Shown here one piece after another: positions 91 through 41,114 of a DNA stretch of 64,000 nucleotides (the first letter of the stretch is position 1; each line of letters starts with the position of its first letter). A model generated the notes under the pieces. That model ran no database searches, was not told the DNA's origin, and saw only the letters and a list, made by a program, of their open reading frames with translations. This stretch comes from Pseudomonas resinovorans NBRC 106553 (GTDB lineage Bacteria; Pseudomonadota; Gammaproteobacteria; Pseudomonadales; Pseudomonadaceae): positions 124,001 to 188,000 of the forward strand of contig NC_021506.1 of assembly GCF_000412695.1 (NCBI RefSeq), read 5' to 3'. The position numbers and the translations under genes are program-made.

Positions 91-114
91 CGACCATAAA
101 ACTGCCTGAAAACG
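91..114 (+). promoter_or_regulatory. Conserved transfer-gene operator, copy A (traI)
   Basis: One of seven related dyad elements found ahead of transfer genes. It reads CGACCATAAAA followed by CTGCCTGAAAACG and is preceded by a T-run. The gap to the ATG at 174 is 59 bp, matching the other copies. It is inferred to be the binding site of a transfer activator, possibly the FlhC-like protein encoded at 38019-39053. Confidence 0.6.
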
Positions 115-173
115 AAACTCAAGGCGGTATCCCTCACGCATCATTCTCAGCACACAACATGGCCGAGAAGCGT

Positions 174-2711
174 ATGCCTCCATTTTCATTCCTGAAACGC
201 CTGTGGCCTCGAAGCGAGCGTGCCCTTACGGACAGCTTCGCGCATCCGGCCGAGCAGATGATTACTCCTGAGATCAAGCGGTACCTGGAGAACCATAACT
301 GGCGAAATCTTCGGTACCCACCCTACCAAGAGGGTTATCCAGGGCTGGTTAGCGGGCAGTGGTTCATGCGCAATTATCAGCACGAACTGTTCGATCGGAT
401 TATTCATTCAGTCGGGATGCCTGCCAGTGACCTCAAGCTCTACGTTGAGCCGATCCTGGTGAATTTCGCCGAATTGGCGCACATGCTGCCGGCGTCGGAG
501 AACCACCATCACTCCGGCCCAGGCGGATTGCTCCGACATAGCCTTGAGGTCGCCTCGCTCACCCTGGATGGGTGCCTTACTACAGCCTTTGATACAAACG
601 AGACCCCGGCACGGCGAAGCATGCGCTTGCGTCGGTGGTACGTCGCGGGCATCGCGTCGGGGCTGCTACACGACGCAGGGAAGCCACTCACAGATATTCG
701 TGCCACCGATTTTGAAGGCAACAACCAGTGGATCTACGCGCAGGAAACACTTCATGACTGGTCTGTGCGCAACAAGCTGACCCGCTATTTCCTGCATTGG
801 AATTCCAATAGGCATGGGAATCACGTTCAGGTCTCTGTAGCGCAAGCAACACGGATCATTCCGCCAGCCGTACAGGCATGGCTGATTGAAGGTGGCCACG
901 ACATCTACGAAGCGCTCCTCGATGCAATTTCCGGGAGCGGAAGCTCGCCTCTGACCGAGTTGGTCAAGTGGGCCGACTCTGCATCCACCAAGCGTGACCT
1001 CAATCGAGGCTCGAATAATGGCGGCGGCAATGCAACAGGTGTTCCGGTACCGCGGTTGGTGTCGGATGCAATGCTGCGGTTGCTGAGTGACGGAACCTGG
1101 AAGATCAACACGCCTGGCGGCCGCGTATGGGTTGCAACTGATGGCATCTACATCGTTTGGAACCAGGGTGCCGAGGAGATTGTGAGCATGCTGGTCGGTG
1201 ATGGGGTTGTGGCCATCCCGCGATCACCTGACACGCTAATTGGTTCCTTGGTAGAGCACGGGATAGCAGAGAGAGCCCCAAACGGCGACCTGTACTGGCT
1301 GGTTACGCCCCACCTTCTCCGCAAGAACGGCAAAGGCCCGGCGCTGCGCTGCATGAAGCTTGTGAATCCGGACATCCTTTTTCCAACCACACCGATTCCG
1401 CCGCCAGTTTCCATCGGCCTTGGGAAGGAGGGAAAGCAGAAGGATGTCATTGCTCCTAACGATACGGCTGGCGCAGCAGCGAACGCGCTGAGTGAGCATC
1501 AGGAAGACCTGTTTGGGGCCGATCTAACTGGAGACTCGAGCGGGGATACTGACGCTGATTCGGGTCCTACACCTCCTAAAGAATCCGCATCGTCGAAGCC
1601 AGCAAGAAAGAAAAAAGCGGCTCCAAGGCAAGCAGCTCCGGTACCAACAACCGCCTCTTCAGGGGTTAGCCTCAAACAAGCGCAGAACCCCGTCGAAGAC
1701 GCCCCTGTTAATGTGGATTCAGAGTCGGCGGCTGACGAAACGGCGGTAATTGTTTCCTCCCAACCAGAGGAAGCTTTGGATGCTGAGGAGGAGGAAGAAG
1801 CACCTCAGGAGCCACCTGCCAGCCTTGAGGAAATGCTGCTTTTCTTGAGTCCTCACTCGCCGGCGGCTGATCCCCATCAAGAAGAAACACTCTCGGCCGC
1901 TGAGGCTGAAATTAGCTCCGATCTCTCTGATGCTGATCCGCAGGCTGGACCAGGGCAAGGTGCGCAGGAGCTTTTGCCTCGTCAGGAAAAAATTTCCCTC
2001 AACTCCATCATGGGGCAAGGCAAACGCACGCCTAAAACTACGCCTCCGGCGGAATCGAAGAAGCAGAAAGACGGAGAGGTCGGACGCGTCGCGGAGGAGG
2101 TGCCATGCGCTTCCAGCATCTTGCCAGCCGATGTCGTCTCGAAGCTTACAGCGCACGAATGCTACCTGTTGGAACAACAACCTGATCTTGCCCAAAAGCT
2201 CATCACCGCGACTCAAGACCCCGAGAACGCGGCATTAGCAAGAAACAAGGTATTCGTTCGACTGGGAAAATCTTCCTTCCTTGCTGAGGACATCCACCCG
2301 CTCGTCCATGCGGGCTGGTTGTGGCAGGACATTACGGTCGAAGGTCCGGCCCTGACCCGGACCCTACAGTCCCGTGAAGGCTTCATGCTCACTGCCGACT
2401 ACAGCGTCATCTACTGCAAGTTAGCGGAGCTGGACTGGGCTATTCCTCACCTGTCGCGGCTTCGTGAAGCCGACATCCCAAGCCTCGAGCAGGCTGTGAA
2501 GTCGCTGATCGAGAAGGCCGTACTTGAGGAGATAGGCGGCTCACCTGTGCTCAGCCTCACAACCTACATGCTCACGAATGTCGCTGAGCAGTTCGGGATC
2601 ACATCAACATCCCTAGAGAACGCGGTGTTCTGCTTCCGCGATGCCGTGAAGGTCGCCAAGCGCAGAAAGATTTTCGTTCGCCCCCTTTACGAGGAGCTTC
2701 CCAAAAAATGA
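174..2711 (+). CDS. traI: MobH-family conjugative relaxase TraI
   Basis: Relaxase that would nick oriT and pilot the transferred strand. Near residues 110-125 is the MobH signature HHHSGPGGLLRH, and near 165 an HD-type LLHDAGK; these are the conserved metal-binding motifs of TraI_2-type relaxases. A long acidic, Pro/Ala/Ser-rich linker lies around residues 420-700, followed by a conserved C-terminal domain. Start choice: the open frame extends to position 9 through a terminator and the operator, so the true start is later. ATG 174 gives the same 59-bp spacing from the operator as the other regulated genes; ATG 159 is the alternative, and neither has a strong ribosome site. The gene overlaps traD by 4 bp (ATGA). 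Family assignment is secure; the start is uncertain. Confidence 0.9.
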   Translation: MPPFSFLKRLWPRSERALTDSFAHPAEQMITPEIKRYLENHNWRNLRYPPYQEGYPGLVSGQWFMRNYQHELFDRIIHSVGMPASDLKLYVEPILVNFAELAHMLPASENHHHSGPGGLLRHSLEVASLTLDGCLTTAFDTNETPARRSMRLRRWYVAGIASGLLHDAGKPLTDIRATDFEGNNQWIYAQETLHDWSVRNKLTRYFLHWNSNRHGNHVQVSVAQATRIIPPAVQAWLIEGGHDIYEALLDAISGSGSSPLTELVKWADSASTKRDLNRGSNNGGGNATGVPVPRLVSDAMLRLLSDGTWKINTPGGRVWVATDGIYIVWNQGAEEIVSMLVGDGVVAIPRSPDTLIGSLVEHGIAERAPNGDLYWLVTPHLLRKNGKGPALRCMKLVNPDILFPTTPIPPPVSIGLGKEGKQKDVIAPNDTAGAAANALSEHQEDLFGADLTGDSSGDTDADSGPTPPKESASSKPARKKKAAPRQAAPVPTTASSGVSLKQAQNPVEDAPVNVDSESAADETAVIVSSQPEEALDAEEEEEAPQEPPASLEEMLLFLSPHSPAADPHQEETLSAAEAEISSDLSDADPQAGPGQGAQELLPRQEKISLNSIMGQGKRTPKTTPPAESKKQKDGEVGRVAEEVPCASSILPADVVSKLTAHECYLLEQQPDLAQKLITATQDPENAALARNKVFVRLGKSSFLAEDIHPLVHAGWLWQDITVEGPALTRTLQSREGFMLTADYSVIYCKLAELDWAIPHLSRLREADIPSLEQAVKSLIEKAVLEEIGGSPVLSLTTYMLTNVAEQFGITSTSLENAVFCFRDAVKVAKRRKIFVRPLYEELPKK

Positions 2712-4537
2712 GTGAATGGGATTACACGAGTTACTGGCGGAAAAACTACGAGGCGCGGGAAGCTGTTGCGTGGGGTTCTTCCATGCTTGCCGGTACCGCC
2801 GTTCAACTGATTACGGAGATGCCGGTAACCCCATACCTGATAACGCTTGGCGTGCAAGCTGGATTCGCCCTGGCGGCCATACCAAGGGCCCTCCGTGTCC
2901 ACCGGGCAAAAGCCTGTCTCGTTGGAGCAGATCTATCCTTCATCACATTGGAGGAGGTGATCGAGCTGGTGAAGAGACACCCACACGAGTTCTATTTCGG
3001 CGAGGCGTTCCCTTGGCGACAGCGGCACGGGCAGTACGCATTCGAGCTCCAGGCGATGGATATTGAGGCCATTATCGGTAAGCGTGGCCGCCGCAACGCT
3101 GAGGTTAAGGGTACGAAATGGATACACGGGATCGGTATGGATGAGGAGGAACCATGTTTCCGTCCAGCAGATCAGCGTTCGATCCACCACCTCGTCCTGG
3201 GCACAACAGGGGCCGGTAAGACCCGCTGGTTCGACCTAGCTATATCTCAGTGTATTGCTCGTGGTGAACCCGTGATCGTAATCGATCCCAAAGGCGATAA
3301 AGGCCTAGCAGAAACGTGTGAGCGCACATGCAGGGCGATGGGGAAGGCCAGCCTGTTCAAATACTTCCACCCTGCACATCCGGACAAGTCGGTTCGTTTG
3401 TCGCTAACAAAGAACTACGGCCGGGCAACGGAAGTTGCCTCCCGTGTGGCAGTGTTGATGAAAAGCGAAGCCGGCGATCCATTCCAAGCCTTTGCTCAAA
3501 TGTCCTTGAATAGCGTGATTCAGGCCATGTTGATCTGCAACATCCTGCCCACGCTTGTTGGTCTCAGGAGAACCCTTGAGGGAGATGTTCCAGGGTTAAC
3601 CATCAAGGTGGTCATGGCCTTCGGTTCAAAGGTCTTCGGTGAAGATGAATTCGCGAGGATGGCCGATTCAGCAATTCTCTCGGCCAAGGTTCGGAACACC
3701 GAAGAGAAGGCGAAGGTATTACGGAAGGTCTATTACAACGATATCGCGAAGGTTGAGGCTAATACCGATCTGGAAGGTCTGCTCACCATGCTCGAGCACG
3801 AGCGATCGCACTTCAGCAAGATGATCGCTGGCCTTCTTCCAATTCTGGTGATGCTCACCTCCGGTGAAATGGGGCCGCTGCTTTCCCCGCACATCGACGA
3901 CGAAGACCCGCGCCGAATCAGTGACCTCAACTCGGTCATCAATGCCGACCAGGTTCTTTACCTGGGCCTCGACTCGCTTGCCGACCCGATGGTGGGCTCA
4001 ACCATCGGGTCGCTGGCCCTGGCCGATCTGGCGTCGACCGCGGGCGAGATCTACAACCACAGGTTGCCTAAGCCGGTGAACATCTTTGTCGACGAGGCCG
4101 CCGAGGTGATCAATGACCAGCTCATCCAGCTGCTGAACAAGGGCCGCGGCGCAGGGATAAACCTCTACATCGCAACCCAGACCATCGCCGACTTCAAGGC
4201 CCGCATGGGTGACGAAGCCAAGGCCATGCAGGTTTTGGGGAACGCGAATAACATCATCTGCCTCCGCATCCTTGATACCGATACGCAGGAGTTCGTGGCG
4301 AAAAAGATGACGCCAACTCGCTACAAATACGTGATGCGTACTCAGGGCAACTCGGCAGGTGAAGGCGGGGTGGTGCAGGGCGGGAATGTTGGTGAGCGCC
4401 TTATGCAAGAGGAGGGTGAGCGCTTCCCAACAGCGCTCCTCGGCGAGCTACCAGACCTCGAATATCTCGCGGTGTTTGCGGGCGGTGATATCCGCAAGGG
4501 GCGACTACCCATTCTTACCGGCCCGACTGCCAACTGA
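2708..4537 (+). CDS. traD: Type IV coupling protein TraD
   Basis: Inner-membrane coupling ATPase (609 aa) that links the relaxosome to the secretion channel. Two hydrophobic segments lie in the first 60 residues. Walker A GTTGAGKT is near residue 163, and a Walker B-type NIFVDEAAEV is near residue 457. The order relaxase then coupling protein, with a 4-bp overlap, is typical of MobH elements such as SXT and IncA/C, and implies translational coupling. No damage is visible. Confidence 0.93.
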   Translation: MSEWDYTSYWRKNYEAREAVAWGSSMLAGTAVQLITEMPVTPYLITLGVQAGFALAAIPRALRVHRAKACLVGADLSFITLEEVIELVKRHPHEFYFGEAFPWRQRHGQYAFELQAMDIEAIIGKRGRRNAEVKGTKWIHGIGMDEEEPCFRPADQRSIHHLVLGTTGAGKTRWFDLAISQCIARGEPVIVIDPKGDKGLAETCERTCRAMGKASLFKYFHPAHPDKSVRLSLTKNYGRATEVASRVAVLMKSEAGDPFQAFAQMSLNSVIQAMLICNILPTLVGLRRTLEGDVPGLTIKVVMAFGSKVFGEDEFARMADSAILSAKVRNTEEKAKVLRKVYYNDIAKVEANTDLEGLLTMLEHERSHFSKMIAGLLPILVMLTSGEMGPLLSPHIDDEDPRRISDLNSVINADQVLYLGLDSLADPMVGSTIGSLALADLASTAGEIYNHRLPKPVNIFVDEAAEVINDQLIQLLNKGRGAGINLYIATQTIADFKARMGDEAKAMQVLGNANNIICLRILDTDTQEFVAKKMTPTRYKYVMRTQGNSAGEGGVVQGGNVGERLMQEEGERFPTALLGELPDLEYLAVFAGGDIRKGRLPILTGPTAN

Positions 4538-4551
4538 TTCCGGAGCAAAAA

Positions 4552-4908
4552 ATGACTGTCTCGATTCCACTAGAAATTCAGCGGCTCACTGGCCTGGATG
4601 AGGCCTCAACAACTCGGCTGCGCACGTTTGACCTGGAATGGCGTTGTGGCACGCAATTCATCTTCAAGATGCTTGAGGCGGGTCATAAACCCGAGGTGAT
4701 TGGCGCAGCCCTGATCGACGTGCTGGTGGCTTACCAGCGTATGTGTCGCGAGGGTATCAGCGACTTCATCCGGCTTCGCGTAGTGCTTGGCCACATCCTC
4801 CAGATCCTCACGAGCTACGGCAACGCCCCTGCACCGGATGATGTTGTCCTGTGGTGCGAAACAACCAATGTCCCGCAACCTATCCGGGAGTACCTGATCA
4901 ATGGCTGA
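4552..4908 (+). CDS. Hypothetical protein between traD and DUF4400 gene
   Basis: 118-residue protein of unknown function starting 14 bp after traD and overlapping the next gene by 8 bp, so it belongs to the traI-traD operon. No signal peptide or clear membrane segment is seen; it is a mixed helical, soluble-looking protein. Position is comparable to the small gene after traD in other MobH/MPF-F elements, but I do not recognise the family. Confidence 0.75.
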   Translation: MTVSIPLEIQRLTGLDEASTTRLRTFDLEWRCGTQFIFKMLEAGHKPEVIGAALIDVLVAYQRMCREGISDFIRLRVVLGHILQILTSYGNAPAPDDVVLWCETTNVPQPIREYLING

Positions 4909-5548: not shown

Positions 5549-5552
5549 ATTC

Positions 5553-5576
5553 TGACCATAAAACCGCCTGAAAACG
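5553..5576 (+). promoter_or_regulatory. Conserved transfer-gene operator, copy B
   Basis: TGACCATAAAA followed by CCGCCTGAAAACG, almost identical to copy A. The gap to the ATG at 5636 is 59 bp. The right half also forms a perfect 10-bp stem (CCGCCTGAAA at 5564-5573 with TTTCAGGCGG at 5581-5590), so this copy can fold as a hairpin after the traD operon as well as act as a DNA site. Confidence 0.6.
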
Positions 5577-5635
5577 GAACTTTCAGGCGGTGTTTGTCCG
5601 CAGAATGCCCCTAACACCACGACAGGCTGATCCTT

Positions 5636-6421: not shown

Positions 6422-6705
6422 GTGAGCCAATCAAAATCCCGGCATACATCGACCAGCCGCCTCACGTTATGTTTTGGCGTTTGGATGAGGTGATGCCGAT
6501 CGGAATCGGTTTGGTTGCCGGCGTTCTTCTGGCACAGCTGATTCTCTGCACGGTGGTAGGTCTGTTGCTCGCTCGCTTCTATCGCCGCTTCTGCGACAAC
6601 CGCCCTGACGGCTTTCTGCTTCACGCCATTTACTGGCACTGGGGAGCTATCGGCCGGAAGAGAGTGCGATCCATGCCCAATTCCTACGAGAGAGAGTTCG
6701 TCTGA
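6418..6705 (+). CDS. traL: Conjugative pilus assembly protein TraL
   Basis: 95-residue inner-membrane protein (TraL/VirB3-like) with a central pair of hydrophobic segments around residues 25-55 and a basic C-terminus. The start is GTG, overlapping the previous stop. The gene is followed immediately by traE (ATG overlaps its TGA), giving the conserved traL-traE-traK-traB-traV order of F-type systems. Confidence 0.88.
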   Translation: MSEPIKIPAYIDQPPHVMFWRLDEVMPIGIGLVAGVLLAQLILCTVVGLLLARFYRRFCDNRPDGFLLHAIYWHWGAIGRKRVRSMPNSYEREFV

Positions 6706-7343: not shown

Positions 7344-7362
7344 CGCCAAGTTGAGGCACAAG

Positions 7363-7397: not shown

Positions 7398-7442
7398 GTG
7401 GGTATCGCCGGTCAACGCATATACGGAATAGCCCTCTGTTTT

Positions 7443-7467
7443 CAGACGCAAAAGTTGCTTGAAAACG
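7443..7467 (+). promoter_or_regulatory. Conserved transfer-gene operator, copy C (traK)
   Basis: Preceded by GTTTT, this copy reads CAGACGCAAAAGTTG then CTTGAAAACG, a clear dyad (TTTTCAGACG against CTTGAAAACG). Gap to traK ATG 7528 is 60 bp. A downstream TCAAGC can pair with GCTTGA, as also seen for copies A and B. Confidence 0.6.
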
Positions 7468-7527
7468 CAACTCAAGCGGCGGAATGCCCCCCAGAATTGA
7501 CGACAACTCAGAGCAGAGGTCGTCTCG

Positions 7528-8568: not shown

Positions 8569-8580
8569 GGGGAACCTTCC

Positions 8581-9897: not shown

Positions 9898-9907
9898 GGA
9901 CATCGTA

Positions 9908-10408: not shown

Positions 10409-13400
10409 AAAATAACGAAGTGCCGGTGGTGGAGCAGAAATGCGCCTTGCGAAAGCGGGCGCATTTGGTCGTTTCAAGACCTGACAAAACACACTCTAAG
10501 GTTTCGCTTGCCAACGCGAGTTAAAGGAGTTCCACGATGGGTAAGAATAAAACCCGAGGACCATCGTTCCTCAATAAGGTGAGTGGTGCGCTTTTAGGCG
10601 CACTCGCTTTGGCCATTGTGCCAATCAATGGTGCGTATGCCGACCTTGTTAAATACGGTTATACGAACAGTGCGGGGGATCAAATCAATACGGAGCCAGG
10701 CACAGGGTTTATCAGCCCATCCTCTGGCATCTCGTTCATGGTTAGCGGTGGTATTGACCGAAAGCTGCGCATAGCGGTGACTGCGAACGGTGCCAGCGCA
10801 CCTGTTTTCACTAAGGAAAGCTCAAGGGTTCTTGGGGCGAGCGACGTTATCTCTTACAACGGCGACAACTACTACGCGGAAGAATTTGTTAGTCCGAAGC
10901 TACCCGATGGCCGCTATACCGTGAAAACAGAAATCCTTTCTAGTGCAGGCGCGATTGTTCAAACTGAGAATGTGCCTCTTGTCATTGATACTGCCGGCCC
11001 AGTAGCAGGGAAATTTGCCCCACGTCCATATACATGGGGTGATCCCGTTCTCTCTGGCGAAGTGTGGAAACTCGGACTTGCAGCAATTGATGCTTTGACG
11101 TACTCGAGCTTCGTCCTAGATGGCTTCTCTGACTCATCGGGCATAAGCAAGGTCACTGCTAAGGTTTACCGCGAGTCTGGCGCTCTTTATAAAGAACACA
11201 ATGTGCTGTTTTCGGAAGAAACTAAGACGGCCTCGATTCAGTACCGGACAAATTTCTTCCCTGACTCCGATTTGGATGAAGTATTCGGGCTAGAGTTTGT
11301 TGTTACCGACAAAGCAGGAAACTCGACAGTAACCAAGCGTCAGAAGCTTATGTTCGACAATATTGCAAACGTTCCAGCTGAACCGTTTGGTGTGTATGAC
11401 CCAAGTGTGACGACTACCCTCGCACCTGGCCTAAAAGGGTTTGTTCCCTATGTAGCAGGGTCTTATGTAAAGACTAACCCGATACGACTTGCATGGAGAA
11501 TCCCTAAGAGCAACTGGCATACCTATCGGCAGGGAGGGTTACGCTTCATCAATAGCTTTGGTGAAAATCAAGTTGCTGGTGAGGATTCTGCATACGTTTA
11601 TCTTGTCGGATCGCTTCCCTATCGCGCTGAGGATAATAACTACATCAGGTTTTACAACTTCGGCGAATGGGGCTCGCAAGGTACTATTTCTTACAATTTG
11701 GTATTGCACCCATCAGCTCCGAAAACGCCTGTTATAAGCCGTATAGAATACTACTTTAGTGATAAAGGCTGGCTCAATTATTCCGGTAGGGTGGTTTCGC
11801 CGCAAGAACTCCCGCTTACTGTAAGCAAAGTTCGCTATACCGTTGAGGCGCGGCCGTTTGATCAGGTTGCTACCCATATGGGTACTTGTACTATTCCCGC
11901 TGGGCAGACCCAGTGCGAAATTACGGTTAATGTCCAACTCAATAAAGGCACGGCTGGTTACCTACATGACCAAGGGGTTCTAAAGAGTGCGGACGGTTCG
12001 TTGATCGCAACCGGGCAATGGGCGAATGTTTACTGGAACGACCTGTACCTGCCAATCCTCAGTTACACATATGACTCGTCTAGTATGGTTCTGACTCTGA
12101 ACGTCAGACAGCCGCAGCAGGGCGCATTTCAAAATGCTCTTAGCCATAGGGCATCATGGCTTGAAAATTCTAGCGGTACAGCGCTAAGCGTTACAAAAAA
12201 ACTTACATCGTCGTCTGGTGAGTATTTTGAGTACGAATTTGATTTGAAAACCTTGCCGGAAGGCTCTCATGACCTTGTTGGTGTCGCTAGCGAAAACTTA
12301 GGTGCTATAACAAAGCTCCCGCTGTTCAAATTTCAAAGTGACCGGACAAAACCTGTTGTTACAGTAAGCAAAGGTGCGAGCGATACTATTGATACACTCG
12401 ACAAAATCACTTTTACCGTAACAGACAACAAAGATCCTGCGCCCAAGATCACTTCTATTGCATTGACCGGGGGGCCTGCAAACGAGTCGATTGCTCTTTC
12501 GTTCCGCAAAATCAGTGCGACTACCTACGGCCTCGAGTATCCGATCCTTTTCCCGTCGCTAACAGCGGGAGAGAGTTATACCCTTCGAGTTAATGCGCAG
12601 GACGCACAGCAGAATATGGGCGTCGGCTCAACCACATTCCTCTATAGTCCTAAGATGGCTGGGATTGTGGGGCATGTAAACGGTCTCGTTAATATCCCTG
12701 CGGTACCAAAAGAGTTTAATCGTAACGATGGGTCTGTAGTGATTAATAGCGAGCAACTAAAGCTTGCTGATGGGACGCCAGTTTCTGGTGTTTATGATCT
12801 GCTTGCAACGCTCAGGTCTGACGCAGCAACACCTCTAATGATTGGCGGTGTGCTCGTCAATCCGGGAGCAACAGTTACCATTAGCCAACTCAACTTCACG
12901 AACACCAGCGGTAAAATATCACTCCCTGTTGTCCCGGTAACTCAAGGTGCTACAGGGAGGAATGGCGTGATCATTTCTACCTCCGCGCCGAACGCTCCTG
13001 TGGTCTATGCCGATATTAATACCTGGATGCCCAAGGTCACGCTGGGCATCAACGATAGAAATCCAGTTCAGGCAATGACTGACACCACGGTAAAACTGTC
13101 AGCTTCAGCTAGCAGCATTTGCCCTCTAACGACATCTCCCGCGGTGGCAAGGTCTGCCGATGCCATCAAGTCGCCCATCTGCTTGCTTGAGTGGACGAGC
13201 ATTCCCCGAGGCCTTCAACAAGTAGAGGTTTCCGGTGCACCTCACCCGGTCACTCAGCTGACTGGGCGAGTCCTCGACGCAGGCCAGCAGAAGGTTGCTT
13301 ATTCTCTCTATGTATTCAACAAGGGCACTGAAAAGGTACTGCTGAGCAGCGGTGAAGAAATACTGAGCGTCAAAGCCGCGACCGGCTCAACAACCTTCGT

Positions 13401-16400
13401 CCAATCGCTGCATGAGAAAAGTGTTACTCGTGCGATGGAGGCTGCATCCGTCACCATGACGCAGCGTTCGGGGCCAACGTGCTCGATCACTGGTGATGAC
13501 GCAGCGGCAAAGAGCGCAGGCATGAGCGGCGGGGCCTTGAAGTGCTTGATTGAGTTCACGGTCATCCCGAAAGACCTGAACATCAAAGCGCTCGATCCTC
13601 TTGAGTTGACCGGCGTTTTCACCCGTTCCGGGCAGCACCCGATTCGCTGGACGGCTAGCGTCTACGACACCACCGGGAAAAAGATCACCCTCGAAGAGGG
13701 GCAATCGGTCATTCAGGTAATAGAACCGCCTGTAACGACGAAACTGACGGTCAGCGTCAACGAAAGCTCGTCGGTGGAAGCAACTCCCATCGAGGACTTC
13801 CCGGCAGCGTGGGAGAAGAAAACCTATTCAATTCTGTCGAGCGCGTCCCAGGGCTCTGTAGTGGCGACCCCTAGCGGGTTCACCTACACCCCGAACACTG
13901 GATACGTTGGCTCCGATGAGTTCAAGTACCGCGTGCAGGACGTGTCTGGGATGAAGGCTGAAGCGACCGCGGTTGTGAATGTCGCGAAGTTCAATTACGC
14001 CCCTACCTGGACGGGAGTAACCATTCAGGCTCGTGAAGGGCAAGTGAGTGACCAGGTTGCTCCTGAGGTCCATGACATCAATCTCTGGGACAGCCATACG
14101 TTCAAGATCCTCACGAACCCGACGCACGGGACTGTCCGTGTGTTCTATGGCCGTATGGAGTACACCCCTAATCCTGGTTTCTATGGGGAAGATTTGTTCA
14201 CTTTCAGCGCCACGGATCAGGAAGGGCTCAGTGTAGAAGGAGAGGGGAAGGTCACTGTTGCTCAGTTCAATTTTGCACCAACGGGTATCACCCCTTCGAC
14301 AGTGAAGATGTATGCAGGAATCGGTGGAACGGCCGATCTGAAAGTAATCGATCCGAACAATTGGGGCTCGCACACATTGCAAGTCGTCAAACAGCCAGCA
14401 CATGGCCATGTGACGGTGGAGGGGATGAGCATCACCTATAAGACCGATGGCCAGGCTGAAACCTCAGTACAGATTCGTGCCATTGACCAGGATGGCCTCT
14501 ATGTCGATCAAGATGTCGTCCTGAAGCTTTTGCCGGCCTGGGAAATGTTCAAAGATCGAGAGGTTCAGCCTACCTCGGTGGCCCCGAGCATCCCGGCCGT
14601 GAAGCAACAAATGACGACCCGTTTGGGTGCCTATGCGCTCCGAATTCCCGACCAGAAAGTGATTCAGGCTCTCGGCAGCGAGATCATCGCCATCGTCACG
14701 CCTGACTCGAAAGTTGGGGTGACACTGGAGCATCGTGAGCTTTCTCAAGGCACTGGTATGCGTCTGGTACCTACTAAAATGACTGCCGATCTGCTGGAGG
14801 CCCGTTTAGGTGGCCTGGATGTTGGGGTCGATGGCCAGGCGCAGGTCTATCTAAGTCGCGCCGATATGACTGGCCCTGTCTATTCCGTGCCGGTAACCGT
14901 ATGGGCTCCGGAGGGCGTACTGACGGCTGATACATGGGAGATTCTACAAGCTTCCGGCCGTGCTCAAATCAGCTTCAGCCCGAGCAATGGGGCATGCAGC
15001 ATCTTGACCAGCGAAGCTGTCGCGAAGACGAAAAATGCACTTCAGGATCGTGCTTGCTACGTCACTTGGACGAAAACTCCCGATGAATGGCGCAACGCTA
15101 GTACTTTGGCCAACCTGATGATGGATGCCGGCGGGAGTTCTTTGGGAAACCAGACTATCGAGGCTACCGCCTATGTGTTTGACCCTAGCGGCGTGAAATA
15201 CAAGGTTGCGAGCTTCACTCGTGACCTGAAGATCCTTCCGGTCGCTGATCAGATCCACTTTGCCTTGAAGCCAGCACCAGAAGAGGCCTATCAGAAAGTC
15301 CAGGAGCTTTCCTTGTCGCTCCGTCACACGGATGGTCCTGTATGTGATGCAACAGCGAACGAAGGCGTTGCAAAAAAGACAGCACAGCAATGGTCGAGCC
15401 GCCCATCGTGCCTTATTCGTTGGATGCAGATGCCAGAAGGCATGGCCCAGCAGCGCAACACCGTCACGCCACTCGCGGAAGGAGCAATGAGTCTGCTCGG
15501 GGCAAACAACATTTCCTGGAAGGCATCCATGTTTACTCCGAGTGGTCAGGAAATCGATATTGGCTACGGAGAGCACAGCGTAAACGTGATCGAGCCGCCC
15601 GCAATCGAAATCGATATGCCGGCCAGCAATCTGGTGAAAGAGGGGCTGTATTCGGTGTCACAACTCGGCGGCTATGTTGGTAGCGCGTCGGTGACCGCAA
15701 TCGCGGCTTCCCTGGACGTGGCGATTAACCGGGCGGATGCAGTGATTGAACGTTCTACGATTCCGAGCTACGGCCGTTCCCAGCGGTTTACGCGCTACAT
15801 CGAAGGGGCCGAGGCCCCCCTGTGGAGCGTAACGCCATACTCAGTTGACGTTGGATACACCGCGCTCCCAAATATGAGGTCGACCAAGACCGCATCACTC
15901 CTGTCGGTCCCTCACGACAAAATTCTCCCTGTCATTCTCAACGACGAGAGAACCGTTCTGGATACGGTCAGCCTTCCAATCCGCGTGGCGATTAAAGACA
16001 CCCGCTACATGGAGGATGCGTATCGGCTGAGCAGCATGGGCGACTGGGATATTCGCCTGCTTTCGACAACTGCCGGAGTCAACTACGAGCCGATGACAAA
16101 CTGGGAGCCAATCGACGAGAACGGGGAGGTTGAGTTCGAGGTCGATTTGCAATCGCTAACGAACAAAGCGGTTCGCATCATTGCTGAAGCGCGTGTTCGC
16201 TCGCCTGTGCCGGAATACGAGCTGATTCGGGAGTCGGGCTCGCCAATGGTGCTTTCCGTGCTAAACGGCGAAGCTCTTGATGGTTCAATTCAGGCGCTGC
16301 GCGTTATCGGCCCTGCTCCTCTTCGCAGCAGCTTCTACGCCGTCACCAATGATCGCTACCAGTCAGGAGACATTGGTGAGGTTCGCTGGGAAATGAGCAA

Positions 16401-16476
16401 AGACGGCGGTGTGTCGTGGGAAGGCGTTGAGGCCAATGCGAAGCTGCCGCAACGGCTCAGCATGATCTTTCAGCGG

Positions 16477-16484
16477 GGTACATA
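16477..16484. repeat. 8-bp target-site duplication, left copy (IS66 element)
   Basis: GGTACATA lies immediately before the element; the same eight bases lie immediately after it at 19442-19449. Eight base pairs is the usual duplication length for the IS66 family. Confidence 0.95.
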
Positions 16485-16530
16485 GTAAGCGTCCGCCCTG
16501 CACCCACTGCCTGCCCTAGCCTTGAATAGC

Positions 16531-20926: not shown

Positions 20927-20931
20927 AATTT

Positions 20932-20955
20932 CCGTCGACAAATGCGCTTGAAAGC
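20932..20955 (+). promoter_or_regulatory. Conserved transfer-gene operator, copy D (traA, divergent)
   Basis: CCGTCGACAAATGCG then CTTGAAAGCG; the most divergent of the seven copies. The gap to the traA ATG is 80 bp, longer than the 57-61 bp of the others. Included because its position after a terminator and before a transfer gene matches the set. Confidence 0.45.
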
Positions 20956-21035
20956 GAAACACAGGCTTACGGAAAGCACGAAAAATGTCTCCGGAGCGCA
21001 GCCCCTGCGCATGTCAACCTCTAGGAGCAAGACCA

Positions 21036-21401: not shown

Positions 21402-21449
21402 GAAAGGCCTCTTTTTCCGACGCTAAAACGTCCTGAAAAAGAGGCCTTT
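21402..21449. repeat. Long inverted repeat between traA and dsbC-like gene
   Basis: AAAGGCCTCTTTTTC on the left pairs with GAAAAAGAGGCCTTT on the right around a 17-base loop that contains the core of operator copy E. As RNA it would act as a terminator or attenuator after traA, letting pilin mRNA exceed that of downstream genes (inference). As DNA it nests the operator. Confidence 0.75.
21417..21441 (+). promoter_or_regulatory. Conserved transfer-gene operator, copy E (dsbC-traC operon)
   Basis: CCGACGCTAAAACG followed by TCCTGAAAAAG, preceded by CTTTTT. Gap to the ATG at 21499 is 57 bp. Same core as copies F and G. Confidence 0.6.
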
Positions 21450-21498
21450 TCTTTTCCGGGCCAAATACTCTGGGTGAATCGACTCAGGAGGTAAGCCC

Positions 21499-28520: not shown

Positions 28521-29207
28521 TCAAGCAACGGCTTCTTCAGGAAGCGAATCGAGAGGGTCGGCATTGCCATCAGGCTCAATGTGACCCGCCGCCTCGCGCT
28601 CCTCCTTGTCAGCGTTCACTTTGGCTTCAGCCTTCTCGATATCTTCCTGAAGCTCTGCGACCTTGCTCGCGTATGCCTTTGCACGCGCGCTCTGACCGAG
28701 GCCAACGAGCGAGCGGATCAGCCGGGCCATTTGGTTGCTCTTGTTTGCACGAAACTCCTCAGCTTCCGAGCTATCGATCTTCTCATGCAGCCAAGCTGTA
28801 TCAACCTGGATAATCAGATGGTCAAATGCCTGAAGCAGGCTGCTCATCCTCTTGATTTCCGGGCTGGTGATTTCGAATTCGCGAGTCAGTGGTGAGCTGT
28901 ACCCTGCAAGCTCTTTGATTCCCAGGCTCTTCAAAAGCGTGTCCATCCGCTCAGACTCGTCACGCACGGCTACTTCCATGCGCTCGATTTTCTTCGAGAC
29001 CGCATCAACCACCGCTTTGTGATCAAAGGTCTTGAGGTTTTTGGCCAGCTTGCGGGACGTAACGTCGATGATAAAAAGAGCCGTCATGAGGCTATCGAAA
29101 CGGTTGCCGGCGAAGAACTTCGCCTGCTCAGTGTTCAGTACCATCTTTCCTTTGAGGGATGGTTTGGAGTATTGGTATTTCTTCGGTTGTGGTTGAGTGG
29201 TCGCCAT
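28521..29207 (-). CDS. DUF1845 / PFL_4669-type conjugative element protein
   Basis: 228 residues, mostly helical and charged, with a basic N-terminus and an acidic tail. The central LNTEQAKFFAGNRFD...FIIDVTSRKL region and overall layout match the PFL_4669/DUF1845 family found in integrating elements and IncA/C-like plasmids; some members are linked to regulation there. Assignment is from memory of the family and is moderately confident. A terminator follows. Confidence 0.65.
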   Translation of the reverse strand: MATTQPQPKKYQYSKPSLKGKMVLNTEQAKFFAGNRFDSLMTALFIIDVTSRKLAKNLKTFDHKAVVDAVSKKIERMEVAVRDESERMDTLLKSLGIKELAGYSSPLTREFEITSPEIKRMSSLLQAFDHLIIQVDTAWLHEKIDSSEAEEFRANKSNQMARLIRSLVGLGQSARAKAYASKVAELQEDIEKAEAKVNADKEEREAAGHIEPDGNADPLDSLPEEAVA

Positions 29208-29616
29208 TAGCGGTTTCTCCGGATGTTGGTGGCCGGACTATTGCACCAGCTTGCGTAGTATCTGGATCGCGATTTCACGCACGATTAGCGTCGGAATTTG
29301 AAGTGATTTTTTCTGGTTGACGACAGACTGAAATGGCGGCGAGAATTACAGCACTCATCGGCCAAGGTCGATTAAGAATTCGCCTCCTGGAGGCCATTGA
29401 CCCTAAGTGACAGCATGCTGCTGCCACTGGTACCCATGACGTGTATGCGTCTGGGAGCAAGCCAAGCTGAGCTTATCAGCTTAAAAACCAAGCCTGCGTT
29501 CGCGTAGCGCCGATCAAAAAAGGAAGCCATTGGCTTCCTTTTTTTGTGTCAAAAAAACCCTGACGGGGAACTCCCGTTAGGGCGTTCTCCGTTTTAAAAA
29601 AATGGAGAACTGAAAA
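29208..29616. other. Intergenic region between divergent genes
   Basis: About 410 bases with no convincing gene. It holds a terminator-like hairpin (AAGGAAGCCA / TGGCTTCCTT with flanking A and T runs, about 29518-29545). A very degenerate match to the transfer operator lies at about 29545-29568, and a 7-bp inverted repeat GTTCTCC / GGAGAAC lies just before the next start. Promoters for both flanking genes must lie here. Confidence 0.6.
29518..29545 (+). terminator. Terminator-like hairpin in the 29.5-kb intergenic region
   Basis: Stem AAGGAAGCCA / TGGCTTCCTT preceded by A residues and followed by a T-run; works in either direction. It could end a short untranslated transcript from the left. 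Confidence 0.75.
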
Positions 29617-31708: not shown

Positions 31709-31740
31709 GCCTCTGGCCTTCTCAACTTCCCCCTCTTTTT

Positions 31741-31765
31741 CCGACCGTAAAAGCGCCTGAAAACG
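31741..31765 (+). promoter_or_regulatory. Conserved transfer-gene operator, copy F (traF-traH-traG)
   Basis: CCGACCGTAAAAGCG followed by CCTGAAAACG, preceded by CTCTTTTT. Gap to traF ATG 31827 is 61 bp. It precedes the third transfer operon. Confidence 0.6.
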
Positions 31766-31826
31766 CGCCCCCTCCTGTTGGCCAACGCTCACAATTCGAG
31801 CATCCTCATCTTGGCCAGACGGACTC

Positions 31827-34249: not shown

Positions 34250-34260
34250 CGGAGATATCT

Positions 34261-37200: not shown

Positions 37201-37476
37201 GATAACTACATCGCAGGGGCTATTACTGCGATCGATGATGCTGCCAAGGCCCCTGAAAGCGGTTCCTATCCCACCCTGACGGCGCTGGCGGATTCAAGGG
37301 ATGCCGTGCAGTACCAGGCGTACCAGGGCCCTTCGAATGAGGATGTTCCTCAAGTTCCAACACCGGCTACAGCCCCACAACCAGCCAGATCCGCTCCGCC
37401 ACCTGCACCGTCGCCATCCTCGGCGGGAGCCACAAACCACAAACCTCAGCGACCGACAGGGATCAACGCTGACTAG
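34261..37476 (+). CDS. traG: Mating-pair stabilisation / entry-exclusion target TraG
   Basis: 1071 residues. The N-terminal third has several membrane segments (about 20-75 and 335-470) and the cytoplasmic/periplasmic C-terminal half is Gln/Ser/Ala-rich with repeats of alanine-rich helices. This is the TraG layout, with roles in pilus assembly, mating-pair stabilisation and exclusion specificity. The gene is followed by a strong terminator shared with the convergent operon. Confidence 0.9.
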   Translation: MDFTIYTTGSAEFLEIMLNACAMITGSGDAEDLARIGALIGLFLLAFQAVFNNQAITFGKAGLVLVLYMMFYGPTATTVIEDTVSSQVRVVDNVPLGPAFVGSVISTVAYGITKTTEQAFSTPSMTDYGLFSSLSTLSKVRDALRNPMALDGFQNYRKSDGWDLPRSVNEYMTFCSLNPVALRTDKTLTDLYRSPGWAQVLSNQTSSMFIYVYDGTAGTMKSCAEARSFLNAHLQNVYTDVLEDILQKGFSEEVKTNRMTTGIQVQAATDQAIQSLALSSKSAQDYVLTSLIAPIFNDSRVDAMNHWQEQRAAMALRESLNQQEIQWAGKGDSFKHYMRPMIAFFEGMLYAMTPFLAFALLLGGPGLSILGKYLVLPLAVGLWMPLLSIVNAFTLWYAGSQMEAVFNGYDPTGSGFAMLQLMDIDKAIGKALGIGGLLAASVPPLALFIVSGSAMVANSIMSQMTAGEKFKSEDVNPRSQESAPVLSTNASFTSDQVGAGVAKTGSPQLAETISSEQAASAVVQSASMASQTATSQYQESLKAAGQQLNSSATGRQALAQIGENLSAGSVLSSNASYNEAKESLRSLGLSESSLNQATSNAAMGISTPLGGMKRSDNTSADTMTQESKAKAEKALAQLTQSVQATDSSTLTFATGDAFSSSALAQQSASNTDEIGKTRSSALQAQQTYSQASAQQDSIKAGQSLNLRDAGVKALTRGLGRNETALALEKMAGQTESGKDLYKQAFGSQSIQDMSKDTSERRAMAAIRAINQDGRLGDLLMSQYNPFDFNVNQGDANSNAGLTSSAAKATAGTDAIAGKLDAKWNSNAGAYANSNDMNASGYQATKEDGATVIGQRNSENMQPVIDANSQNQDHVDNRSSQAAYDTLAARGQAASQGTNLGNIVANGANAAFTGINTIAGAFRSGSDSEKLENYYDIGIKQGLKPEEAQYFAAKATGEFGSAEGDAYRELNGYYRSQGIRDDNYIAGAITAIDDAAKAPESGSYPTLTALADSRDAVQYQAYQGPSNEDVPQVPTPATAPQPARSAPPPAPSPSSAGATNHKPQRPTGINAD

Positions 37477-37498
37477 ATGAGGTTAAGCTGAAACGACA

Positions 37499-37522
37499 AG
37501 GCCGGGATTCCCCGGCCTTTTT
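37499..37522. terminator. Terminator between traG and the convergent operon
   Basis: AAGGCCGGG / CCCGGCCTT with a short loop and flanking A and T runs; can serve both directions. Confidence 0.88.
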
Positions 37523-37540
37523 CTTACCCACCTGCATAGT

Positions 37541-37915
37541 TTACCCCTTGAAGATTTCAGTCAGCCGATCCTTCACCGCCTTTGCGATTTGCGCCCGGAA
37601 CAGGAACAACAAAACAGACAGGCCAACGCTTACACCGACCGCCTCTGCACCCAAGCGGGTGAACACAACGATGTTGATCATCAGCAACACGATGATGCCG
37701 TAAAATTCAGCATTCGCCTTTGCACCGGTAAGAACCTGTTCTTCAGTCAGCATCCACTTGGGAGATAGGCAAAACGGGCAAACCGAGGCCTCCGGGTCAC
37801 GGCCACCAACAGGGACGCCGCTGATGTAGAAAGGGGCGCTGGTGATAACCTTCGGTACCATCATTTTCTTGCAGCACTGGCACTCAACTTTGTCGTTTCG
37901 CATGTCGCTCACCAT
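37541..37915 (-). CDS. Small zinc-ribbon membrane protein, unknown
   Basis: 124 residues: two CxxC pairs (CQCC near residue 13 and CPFC near residue 47) suggest a zinc ribbon, and two hydrophobic segments follow (about 70-110). It is the last gene of the minus-strand operon that starts at parM. Function not recognised. Confidence 0.65.
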   Translation of the reverse strand: MVSDMRNDKVECQCCKKMMVPKVITSAPFYISGVPVGGRDPEASVCPFCLSPKWMLTEEQVLTGAKANAEFYGIIVLLMINIVVFTRLGAEAVGVSVGLSVLLFLFRAQIAKAVKDRLTEIFKG

Positions 37916-38018
37916 TCAATTCATCTCACCAATATAATCTCACTACCACGCAGAATCCCAAACGGAAAGCTCCAGCCAGGGGGAACAGGGCCTGCGAATA
38001 GCTTCACGTGGATGGGAT

Positions 38019-39053
38019 TCAGTGGTTGCACCAGATGCATCGGCCGGGCTTGAGTGCGTAACGAGCGTTGATTTCCTTGCACTTGCTGCATGGAGTGAGA
38101 GTGATGTCTCCGGTCTTCATCGCGTTGCTGAGCTGGTAACCGTTGGAAGGGGAGATCATATCGCTGGCCTCAATGCCGACAGCTCTGCACAGCTCTACAT
38201 ACTCGCGATGAGCCGCAACCACCGCCCGAGCATTCGTCCGCCGAAGAGGATTGTCGGCGAGCAGCCTGTATATAGTCAGATAGAGCAAACTGTGAAGAGG
38301 GCTTTCGGCCAGTGTCTTATTCGGTGCCTGTATTCGTCCACTCTGGGACTGAACAAGGGGGATATCCCGTAGCAAGGACCGCTTCATCCTGACTACTTCG
38401 TCCGCATTCAATCCAGTCCATTGCGCGACCAACTTTGGCTGTAGCTTCTGCTGAAGCAACTCGGTCGCTACCACATCGAGGGGCATCGTCGAGGGATAGT
38501 CCTTGATCCGACCTATGCCACTCACGCCAGGCTTCAGAAAGTACCGAAGGTCACCAAGCAATACTGTAGTCACGTCCCTGAGTTGATCGTCTGACGAAGA
38601 TAGGTTCATCCTCAGCTTCCTGAGGTTGCACCTGGTGCCAACCGAGAACCCGCCGCGGCTAACCAGCATCATCCGAGAGTCGAAAGAGCCTGCCTCGAAC
38701 ACCCGATACCCAACATCGTCTAGGCCTACAGCCAGAATTGGGCTTGTCTGGTTGACGCGGGAGAAGTGGCAAAACTCCATGAACATAACCATTTTGTTAC
38801 CTATCTCCCTAAACTCTTCATCGTCTAGGTAGCCCCTGCCGACCTTTAGGGTGTTGTAGTGGACCCGGTAGAGGGAGACCGGGAGAGCGTCGACAGCGTT
38901 CAACTGACGTTGGTTGGTGCTCAACGAAGAAAGCCAAACCATATCGCTCTGAGTCAAGCGCTGCTCAGCGAGAATGACATTGAAATCTCGCAAGCCAGAT
39001 GTCAGCCAGCGCAGACCCATTTGTATCATCGATGCGTTGATCTTAACTCGCAT
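38019..39053 (-). CDS. FlhC-like transcriptional activator, possible FlhD-FlhC fusion
   Basis: 344 residues. The C-terminal half follows the FlhC pattern: a helical region (ATELLQQKLQPKLV...TGLNADEVVRMKRSLL), then HSLLYLTIYRLL...AAHREYVELC, then a zinc site with Cys322, Cys325, Cys339 and Cys342 (CSKC and CIWC). This is the order seen in FlhC and its element homologues SetC and AcaC. The N-terminal 170 residues have LRDFNVILAEQRL, which loosely recalls the start of FlhD; total length is about FlhD plus FlhC. It lies 10 bp after a lytic transglycosylase gene. Inferred role: master activator of the transfer operons through the seven conserved operators. Homology is inferred by eye; the fusion idea is speculative. 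Confidence 0.6.
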   Translation of the reverse strand: MRVKINASMIQMGLRWLTSGLRDFNVILAEQRLTQSDMVWLSSLSTNQRQLNAVDALPVSLYRVHYNTLKVGRGYLDDEEFREIGNKMVMFMEFCHFSRVNQTSPILAVGLDDVGYRVFEAGSFDSRMMLVSRGGFSVGTRCNLRKLRMNLSSSDDQLRDVTTVLLGDLRYFLKPGVSGIGRIKDYPSTMPLDVVATELLQQKLQPKLVAQWTGLNADEVVRMKRSLLRDIPLVQSQSGRIQAPNKTLAESPLHSLLYLTIYRLLADNPLRRTNARAVVAAHREYVELCRAVGIEASDMISPSNGYQLSNAMKTGDITLTPCSKCKEINARYALKPGRCIWCNH

Positions 39054-39063
39054 GTCCCTGCCC

Positions 39064-39633
39064 TTACTTTAAACGCTGTAGTGAACGCCAAATTCTGAGC
39101 ACATTACTCGCATACTCACGTGCGTCAAGTTCACGTTTTGGGTTTCGTGTATGGTAGCCACCGATGGCTAGTTGCATATCGACAGGGTATTGCGCAATCG
39201 ACTCGCAAAGTATCTGGGCACCGATCCGAATGTTTACTTCAGGGTCAAGAAGAAGCTCTGGGCTTGCTACTCGATTGCCATTCCAGCGATAATTTATTTG
39301 CATAATCCCTATATCGGTAAGAATGTCTTCGGCAATATATTTGCCGAGTACAACCTTGGCAGCCATATAGGTTTTAGGGTACAGGGCACCACTAGGCGCG
39401 TTCCGAAGCGCAAATGGGTGTGGTGCAACCATCCCTTGTCCGGCAGAAGTTTTAGATTCATTCAGGGCCAGTGAATATAGAAGCAATGGGTCCGGTTTGC
39501 ATGCGGTGGCCATTGAGGCTCGCTCCCACATTGTCCCTTTTAATGAAAATCCATTAGCGTTTGCGCTTGCTGAATTAAATATTGCAATGCATGCATAGAC
39601 AGCAACAAAGGAGCTGGCACGGATATTAAACAT
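39064..39633 (-). CDS. VirB1-like lytic transglycosylase
   Basis: 189 residues with a signal peptide (about 1-24) and an SLT-type fold: LLYSLALNESKTS with the probable catalytic Glu near residue 56, then DIGIMQINYRW and IRIGAQILCESI, typical of lysozyme-like peptidoglycan hydrolases of conjugation systems. It would open the cell wall for the transfer channel. Starts inside the end of the ParR-like gene (8-bp overlap). Confidence 0.83.
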   Translation of the reverse strand: MFNIRASSFVAVYACIAIFNSASANANGFSLKGTMWERASMATACKPDPLLLYSLALNESKTSAGQGMVAPHPFALRNAPSGALYPKTYMAAKVVLGKYIAEDILTDIGIMQINYRWNGNRVASPELLLDPEVNIRIGAQILCESIAQYPVDMQLAIGGYHTRNPKRELDAREYASNVLRIWRSLQRLK

Positions 39634-39898
39634 TAGCCCCCCTTATCCAGCTAGCAACTGGGCGAGACGTAGGCTCATTACTAATTGGTTCTTTTTCGCC
39701 CTCAGAGAGATTATTATGCTGCTGAGTATCAGTCTGCTTGTTTTTAATCTCTTCGGTCGCGCTAATCATGCTTAGATACAGTGCAGCCATTGCAACAAGC
39801 CTTTTACCCCGATAATCGGGGTCAATAGTTTCGAGATGCGCGTGCAATTCTTGTGTCGCTGGCGTGACTCGACATTGTAGTCTCATCGTTTTATCCAC
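39626..39898 (-). CDS. ParR/StbB-like partition adaptor (probable)
   Basis: 90 residues. The N-terminal MRLQCRVTPATQELHAHLETI...RLVAMAALYLSM looks like a short beta strand followed by two helices, as in ribbon-helix-helix ParR proteins; the tail is polar and disordered. GTG 39898 has GAGGAGGG upstream. It directly follows the ParM-like gene, the usual parM-parR order. Sequence similarity is weak, so context carries much of the call. Confidence 0.55.
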   Translation of the reverse strand: MDKTMRLQCRVTPATQELHAHLETIDPDYRGKRLVAMAALYLSMISATEEIKNKQTDTQQHNNLSEGEKEPISNEPTSRPVASWIRGANV

Positions 39899-39934
39899 AT
39901 TCCCTCCTCAGCGCTTCCCTGCGCAGCCGTTTAA

Positions 39935-40915
39935 TTAAGAGCGTGCTATATGCCAGAAACCTTCGGCATTGCTTTTTACGCTATTCACGGGCTTGACTAC
40001 CAAAGCATCGGGAAATTCTTTTCGAGCAAATGGCTCATACAATGAGGCTCCCCCACCGCCGAGAATTACACAGTCGATAGCACGCCCCTTCAGGAATCGA
40101 AGTCCTTGTTTGATCTCGGTGAAGACGGATGGGATAACACGCTCGGCAGCGCGCTCGAGATATTCAGCAAGCTCAACTTTGCGGCCATAGATCAGGATGT
40201 AAGATTTACCCGACTGGAGCGCATGTTCGATCTTTTCTACACCAGGAATACCGCCATGATCCTTCGCAATTTCTTCGTTGCACGCTTCAAGTACAACAGA
40301 CATAGCTTTGAGGCTGCTGCTGCTGGAGTTGACTACCAGTTCGCGATGGTCAAATACCACCCAATCAACACTGAAAAAACCCGGATCAATAATGATTGAA
40401 ACTGACTCCTCAATAACCTCCGAAGCATCTGAGTTGCAGTAAATCTCCGTCAGAGTCCCGATAGGCTGAGCAACAACCTCTACTCGCTTAACCGTAACCT
40501 CTCGCTTGGGCGTAATCCGATGCGTCCCGGTCATACGCTTTATCAGGGCTTCAACATAGGGCTTATCGCGAGCCTGCGAGACAGGAAGGCCAGTTACTAA
40601 GCAGTCAATCACGTCTTTATCACCGGCCGCATGCAGCAGAGCACCTTTAAATAGGGCCTCATAGGCGTGCGAGGAAGTGTAATCCTCGTGCAGCTCTCGT
40701 CCATCCTGAACTCGGCCGGGCGCGGCAAATGCCACCCAGGGCGCGCCATCAACTTCAACGATTACTTCACCAGGGCGTAACCCAGAATCCCCAGGCAGAA
40801 CGCTCAAGGGAGCGGCCTGCGAGGGACGAATAATCGACTCCGGTTGCCCATCGCCACTGCCAAAAACGCCAATGACGTTGCTGTAACCAATATCCAGACC
40901 TAAGGCGTTACCCAT
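39935..40915 (-). CDS. parM: ParM/StbA-like actin-family partition ATPase
   Basis: 326 residues. The actin-type phosphate-1 motif is LGLDIGYSNV near residue 5, phosphate-2 is SIIIDPGFFSVDWVVFD near 180, and the adenosine motif is DCVILGGGGASLY near 290. It would polymerise to move plasmid copies apart, with the ParR-like protein. ATG 40915 has GGGAG upstream; a longer frame to GTG 41032 lacks a ribosome site. First gene of a five-gene operon that also holds the FlhC-like regulator. Confidence 0.85.
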   Translation of the reverse strand: MGNALGLDIGYSNVIGVFGSGDGQPESIIRPSQAAPLSVLPGDSGLRPGEVIVEVDGAPWVAFAAPGRVQDGRELHEDYTSSHAYEALFKGALLHAAGDKDVIDCLVTGLPVSQARDKPYVEALIKRMTGTHRITPKREVTVKRVEVVAQPIGTLTEIYCNSDASEVIEESVSIIIDPGFFSVDWVVFDHRELVVNSSSSSLKAMSVVLEACNEEIAKDHGGIPGVEKIEHALQSGKSYILIYGRKVELAEYLERAAERVIPSVFTEIKQGLRFLKGRAIDCVILGGGGASLYEPFARKEFPDALVVKPVNSVKSNAEGFWHIARS

Positions 40916-41089
40916 TCGTATGCCGCTCCCAGCAAAAAAAGACAAAAGAAGTGCGCCAAATGACGACGCAGATGACCCCGCAACACATGAAACCCCACAC
41001 CTACAGAATCCCAAGCGCTGCAACTGCATCACCCGGTCAACAGATGACGACGAGCCGTCATAATCTGCCTTCGCGAGAGCACTGTGCTT

Positions 41090-41114
41090 CGTTTTCAGGA
41101 CGTTTTAGCGTCTG
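41090..41114. promoter_or_regulatory. Conserved transfer-gene operator, copy G (mobI/parM divergent region)
   Basis: On the minus strand it reads CAGACGCTAAAACG then TCCTGAAAACG, so its orientation is opposite to the other copies relative to mobI. As a near-palindrome it can be read either way. The gap to mobI ATG 41176 is 61 bp, the standard spacing. An additional imperfect inverted repeat (CAGATGACG / CGTCATAATCTG, about 41041-41066) lies nearer to parM and could be an autoregulatory or centromere site. Confidence 0.55.

Follow-up and report, generated by a model that had tools for sequence, protein, structure and literature searches.

How could the whole transfer machinery of a conjugative plasmid be turned on at once? 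This question is raised by a 64,000-nucleotide (nt) stretch of Pseudomonas resinovorans NBRC 106553 DNA (hereafter the window), in which a dyad element recurs upstream of transfer genes. The carbazole-degrading Pseudomonas plasmid pCAR1 is a well-studied catabolic plasmid, and the window is identical to its positions 124071-188070 (NC_004444; 0 differences). pCAR1 belongs to IncP-7 (PMC2642839). Although this plasmid has been much studied, searches of the open-access literature found no description of the mechanism that turns its transfer genes on. Our analyses suggest that the dyads are probably the sites of the plasmid's own transfer activator, for which the best candidate is a single protein chain of 344 amino acids (aa) encoded in the same region.

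A sequence-only reading of the window had described seven such elements, all of which were found, each with a 25-bp dyad. The dyads of the window are as follows (scores refer to the matrix described below):

87..111, plus strand: operator dyad upstream of traI (mobH relaxase); -10 CATCAT at 139-144; score 47.6
5549..5573, plus strand: operator dyad upstream of the thioredoxin-like/traL/traE unit; -10 CAGAAT at 5601-5606; score 46.0
7440..7464, plus strand: operator dyad upstream of traK-traB-traV; -10 CAGAAT at 7492-7497; score 43.2
20929..20953, plus strand: operator dyad upstream of traA; -10 AAAAAT at 20981-20986; score 40.5; 75 bases from the end of the 38-mer to the start
21414..21438, plus strand: operator dyad upstream of dsbC-traC and following genes; -10 TACTCT at 21466-21471; score 45.9
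29273..29297, minus strand: eighth operator, absent from the sequence-only reading, upstream of the AcaB-like gene; -10 TGCAAT at 29240-29245; score 26.3
31738..31762, plus strand: operator dyad upstream of traF-traH-traG; -10 CACAAT at 31790-31795
41093..41117: two-way operator; -10 CAAAAT at 41145-41150 (plus strand) on the mobI side and -10 GATTAT at 41060-41065 (minus strand) on the side of the operon running from parM to the FlhC-like gene

A 38-position matrix was built from the seven window elements and scanned over the whole of pCAR1. The seven scored 40.5-47.6, compared with a mean of 15.0 and a maximum of 21.7 for the best score per plasmid in 60 first-order Markov simulations. As the seven elements themselves made the matrix, the fair test lies in the further places, eight of which outscored every simulation: pCAR1 92470 (34.6), 110421 (29.8), 75676 (27.3), 60157 (26.9), 70634 (26.3), 153336 (26.3; the dyad at window 29273-29297), 98119 (25.2) and 117076 (25.0). 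The statement that the window holds no other copy of this quality stands, with the qualification that the weaker eighth copy also lies above every simulation. Outside the window, the search of the full replicon gave seven more fitting dyads (60158, 71017, 75676, 92470, 98119, 110422 and 117076). For 60158 and 110422, the matrix favoured the other strand (60157 and 110421), and the strand of the downstream gene was used. The dyad at 71017 scores 19.8, which by score alone is within the range of chance, and was retained among the promoters on account of its spacing and its -10 (see below), while 70634, which lacks both, was excluded despite beating the simulations. Both 70634 and 74135, which are dyad-like places with no gene at the usual distance, were removed before counting; neither has a phased -10, and one lies between repA and the next gene and the other past parB. 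In total, pCAR1 carries about 15 dyads and 16 oriented promoters, with the mobI/parM dyad counted both ways. The element refined from the 16 places is the 25-bp dyad TTTC(A/C)GNCG-N7-CGNC(C/T)TGAAA, often followed by (A)CG.

The sequence-only reading had also proposed that the element covers all transfer operons at once. This is favoured by our results, with the amendment that operators also precede a tellurite-resistance/klaA unit, an SPFH gene, a gene beside HU, and others, so that the regulon, as judged from the positions of the sites, extends past the transfer genes. When the core pattern was searched in the host genome, 7 of the 8 matches at up to one mismatch were on this plasmid, the chromosomal match being without the left arm, and at up to two mismatches the matches numbered 15, compared with 7 in the reversed control. 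In a 257-gigabase collection of bacterial and archaeal genomes, the strict motif was found in 16 stretches (17 sites on 6 contigs of 5 genomes), only in Pseudomonas or Stutzerimonas hosts, and every site preceded an IncP-7 transfer gene or unit (traI, thioredoxin-like/traL, traF or parM/mobI). These sites are in close relatives of pCAR1 and therefore indicate specificity, not independent conservation.

The feature that is kept most exactly is the distance from the dyad to the -10. When the 16 oriented promoters were aligned, the position 26 bases past the end of the 38-mer was T in all of them (16 of 18 if 70634 and 74135 are included), position +22 was A in 15 and position +25 was A in 13; the best column held 2.23 bits, compared with 1.20 for the largest best column among 2000 sets of random positions. 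A2, A5 and T6 are the signature of the sigma70 -10 hexamer. The -10 of these promoters is NANNAT, with its T 45 bp from the dyad centre in 16 of 16, and TGCAAT of the 29273-29297 operator is the sole hexamer without A at position 2. The -10 had been spotted by eye before the 16 promoters were listed, and the eight sites beyond the original seven are thus not fully independent evidence for it. With T6 set at -7, the dyad centre is near -52 and the right arm ends just upstream of -35, where the alignment of the 16 pCAR1 promoters gave no TTGACA-like column. Judged from sequence only, the dyads abut the -35 of the tra promoters as the sites of FlhDC-type activators do. An activator site fixed relative to the promoter, as previously suggested, is therefore favoured. 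In contrast, the constant gap to the start codon on which that suggestion rested is only approximate: in 13 of the 16 cases the RefSeq start lies 48-58 bases past the 38-mer end, with traI (40), traA (75) and parM (170) as exceptions, and the near-constancy results from a fixed promoter followed by short leaders. For traI, the RefSeq start (window 159) lies about 8 nt past the predicted transcript start, and an in-frame ATG at 174, the start assigned in the sequence-only reading, gives a gap of 55 and suits the common spacing better.

The predicted starts were compared with a tiling-array study of pCAR1 which tabulates 49 transcription units (PMC2642839), of which units #1-#44, with 46 published starts, were used. 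On pCAR1 the predictions fall at 60228, 71087, 75746, 92437 (-), 98189, 110492, 117043 (-), 124221, 129683, 131574, 145063, 145548, 153303 (-), 155872, 165123 (-) and 165227, with the minus strand marked (-). Four of the 16 predicted starts were within 35 bp of a published start on the same strand, namely 60210 (offset -18), 117040 (3), 155840 (-32) and 165130 (-7), while the remaining 12 had none close by among the 46. Rotated sets of predictions gave a mean of 0.14 matches, and four were reached in 0 of 5000 rotations; within 20 bp there were three matches, equalled by 2 of 5000 rotations. The published start of unit #40 falls 32 bp upstream of the start predicted from the traF operator. That of unit #41 (pCAR1 165130, minus strand) is 7 bp from the start predicted on the parM side, and the published unit beginning there, ORF154-150, spans the candidate activator gene (PMC2642839).

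For comparison with more distant plasmids, we took pF061_1 (traI 51% identical), one plasmid from Azotobacter (56% identity over 73% of traI) and one from Stutzerimonas (36.8% identity over 76%), using chosen gene starts only (6, 9 and 9, respectively). The arms differ between lineages: the Azotobacter dyad is TTTCAAGCCA-N5-TGGC..GAAA, the Stutzerimonas dyad is AAAC..ACCA-..-TGGT..GTTT, and that of pF061_1 has an intermediate form. The -10 T is nevertheless 33 nt past the right arm in all four lineages, pCAR1 included, placing it 45 bp from the dyad centre in the cases of pCAR1, Azotobacter and Stutzerimonas. This spacing fitted 6 of 6 promoters of pF061_1, 8 of 9 of Azotobacter and 9 of 9 of Stutzerimonas, the odd one being off by one base. 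Operators precede traI, thioredoxin-like/traL, traK, traA, dsbC and the acaB-like gene in all three relatives, and additionally traF, mobI or its replacement, and a hypothetical-thioredoxin pair in Azotobacter and Stutzerimonas; several other upstream regions read in the relatives, outside the chosen gene starts, had no such element. A symmetric form of the pCAR1 matrix, for which the reversed-sequence control on pCAR1 itself reached 19.2, found nothing clearly above the reversed control on two relatives (13.0 versus 20.3 for L015, 16.7 versus 16.0 for L013), whose operators were recognised only from reading upstream regions. The variation of the arms while the geometry stays the same argues for a protein-DNA contact under selection. 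In the Stutzerimonas plasmid, the annotated traF start (L036:35718) overlaps the predicted -10 (GATAAT, then G), and the true start is probably downstream.

Which protein makes this contact? The copy described earlier as inverted and standing before the mobI-like gene is confirmed for mobI, but it is two-way and also faces an operon that contains the candidate activator gene:

38019..39053, minus strand: gene of the candidate activator (344 aa), with a match to the FlhC fold and a CxxC...CxxC end in residues 187-344 and a possibly FlhD-like part in residues 1-186
39064..39633, minus strand: transglycosylase (SLT) gene adjoining the candidate activator gene; the same neighbour is found in IncC
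39626..39898, minus strand: 90-aa gene, between parM and SLT
39935..41032, minus strand: parM/stbA-like gene, with which the published unit ORF154-150 begins; RefSeq start at 40915, with a longer GTG-start frame reaching 41032
41134..41670, plus strand: mobI; Pfam MobI 76.8 bits; RefSeq start at 41176

The C-terminal half of the 344-aa protein matches the FlhC fold (PDB 8j56 and 2avu) and has a cysteine-rich C-terminal end, and its gene occupies the place of IncC acaDC, between traG and parM/mobI and beside the SLT gene. A Foldseek search with the N-terminal half alone gave no match at E<0.001, and the Pfam FlhC and FlhD models gave no match in the host genome at E up to 10. The protein appears to combine FlhC with a possibly FlhD-like part in one fused chain, instead of being an FlhC by itself, and is the likely candidate for the activator binding the dyads. 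The single-chain protein is rare. Only 1 of 369 genomes across the class had it (the host itself), and 9 of 398 genomes matched in a survey of the family, eight at full length and one (G442, L046) by the C-terminal half only. Among 23 plasmid records with the protein, 16 are at 93.6-100% and seven at 33.5-38.1%, the distant ones being four from Azotobacter, two from Stutzerimonas and one from Pseudomonadaceae. The side of the shared dyad facing the activator operon has a phased -10 in three lineages, GATTAT in pCAR1, GATCAT in Azotobacter and GATAAT in Stutzerimonas; in the last, a hypothetical gene sits in the place of mobI, and the genes up to the activator form a putative operon. Another protein (209 aa, window 44781-45410), which has a weak match to a zinc finger and was tried as the FlhC-like protein, had no PDB sequence match and was dropped once the acaDC-like locus was found.

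In the model that we propose, the 344-aa protein would be one chain made up of an FlhC half and a half that is probably FlhD-like, and a dimer of it would occupy the two arms of the 25-bp dyads, whose centres lie near -52. The bound activator may make up for the absent -35 through a contact with RNA polymerase, allowing the sigma70-type -10, exactly 45 bp from the dyad centre, to fire. The approximately 15 dyads would in this way turn on the transfer operons jointly, together with the AcaB-like regulator and several non-transfer backbone genes. If the candidate protein is indeed the binder, positive feedback is built in, since one two-way dyad would drive both mobI and the activator operon, and this feedback could act as an on/off switch.

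Activation of conjugation by FlhDC-type proteins is already known as a kind of system; the single-chain form, the operator code and the regulon described here were not found in the open-access literature. AcaCD of IncA/C plasmids is similar in that the FlhC-family activator is encoded between traG and parM/mobI with an SLT gene adjoining, and in that the acaB promoter is AcaCD-inducible (PMC11493245), as the acaB-like gene has an operator here. It differs in consisting of two proteins, AcaD and AcaC, instead of one chain, and its sites are of the GCCCNAAANNGGGC type (SGI1 sites, Table 1 of PMC4207636), which the pCAR1 consensus is not. When pKAZ3 was searched for AcaCD boxes with a simple consensus, no clear common -10 emerged. 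Furthermore, AcaB is reported to activate the IncC acr-acaCD operon, acaB being a member of the AcaCD regulon (PMC10954446), while the pCAR1 activator operon has its own operator. SetCD of SXT/R391 is also FlhDC-like, and its motif either directly precedes a poor -35 or overlaps with it, in a class II-like arrangement; FlhDC and AcaCD are reported to have drastically different motifs (PMC4344509), and SetCD is made of two proteins and belongs to an integrating element. FlhD4C2 shares with the pCAR1 protein the FlhC fold, found in the C-terminal half of the latter, and a position upstream of sigma70 promoters (PMC4344509), but is formed by two proteins and has flagellar targets, whereas the pCAR1 candidate is one plasmid-encoded chain. 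In the IncT plasmid Rts1, the SetC/SetD-like Orf246/Orf247, which are required for conjugation, comprise an FlhC-like protein and its partner in one region with SLT and mobI, and are encoded by two separate genes (PMC10838148).

The strongest competitor of the 344-aa protein as the binder is encoded within the window itself:

28521..29207, minus strand: AcaB homologue, 228 aa, with an operator at its own promoter; PDB 6n8b (AcaB) E=1.9e-14 over residues 9-204

This protein, rather than the FlhC-like one, could be the master activator that binds the dyads directly. Its homology to the IncC regulator AcaB is clear in the PDB comparison, while the Pfam AcaB model (PF08900) gave 13.7 bits, below the 27-bit cut-off, and its gene is under the operator in all four lineages examined. 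Two observations weigh against the 344-aa protein at this point: the P. aeruginosa plasmids pF061_1 and pPae-WC20-001-01 keep tra operators without an FlhC-like gene in a profile search, both having the AcaB homologue at the same place, and the AcaB homologue too varies together with the operator arms across lineages. One of these two plasmids has been typed as non-mobilizable, and in the other a short traG stands next to a mercury transposon, so that loss of the FlhC-like gene from them is plausible. In IncC, on the other hand, AcaCD targets acaB, whose product in turn acts on the acaDC operon (PMC11493245, PMC9927553, PMC10954446); the pCAR1 operator likewise precedes acaB plus the tra operons and so takes the place of the AcaCD box. 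We therefore regard direct binding by the AcaB homologue as unlikely.

Even less probable is that the dyads are operators of a plasmid repressor, such as the KorB-domain protein encoded nearby (pCAR1 114291-115199), holding the transfer genes off. Dyad symmetry and the low transcription of the transfer cluster would agree with this, but a dyad near -52, upstream of a promoter with a strictly phased -10 and no usable -35, suits an activator better, and none of the 16 scan places precedes korB. The fixed, two-part, promoter-like layout could also be that of a recognition sequence for an alternative sigma factor; yet the 25-bp element is near-symmetric with a phased -10 of sigma70 type on both sides at mobI/parM, which to our knowledge is not the layout of a sigma-factor site, and the -10 is constant across lineages with differing arms, making this explanation very improbable indeed. 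The transfer activator is favoured because of the phased -10, the missing -35, the phase kept across lineages, the agreement with published starts, and the FlhC fold encoded at the place of acaDC.

On a broader scale, chances appear evenly balanced that IncP-7 and related Pseudomonadaceae plasmids share a single-chain activator which arose by fusion of two acaDC-type genes and feeds back on itself through the operator shared with mobI, with a code changed between lineages and a kept 45-bp geometry. If so, each lineage would regulate transfer through a channel private to it and have a wider regulon of its own, and the lineages would form a natural series for how FlhC-type proteins read DNA, different arms on one geometry offering a route to their DNA code. 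For pCAR1, the shared operator would explain the simultaneous turn-on of the whole transfer machinery, and with the wider regulon, switching transfer on may alter other plasmid genes. The model is testable, as it names an operator, transcript starts predicted for 16 promoters and a single candidate gene.

Other arrangements were seen in related plasmids. In P. mandelii JR-1, a plasmid whose FlhC-type activator is split has a different dyad, TGACCC...GGGTCA, before acaB and dsbC (L018:16834, L018:27688), and on the P. mandelii plasmid (L048:1053-2265) two FlhC-like-looking frames (145 and 257 aa) stand in tandem after a 181-aa gene in the FlhD position. The gene order of the window is traI-traD-...-traL-traE-traK-traB-traV, the gene for a 1982-aa protein, an IS66 group, traA-dsbC-traC-...-traU and a nuclease-like gene, followed by the acaB-like gene (minus strand), primase-like genes, traF-traH-traG, the minus-strand genes parM/90 aa/SLT/344 aa, and then mobI. 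The 1982-aa protein (window 10537-16485) is a DUF4165 protein, and the gene at that place varies greatly in length among relatives. The transfer region of the Azotobacter plasmid contains a BREX defence locus, between traV and traA (L019, L037). On pCAR1, a csrA gene (114107-114280) is located beside the KorB-domain gene, near traN, and could be a second layer of control.

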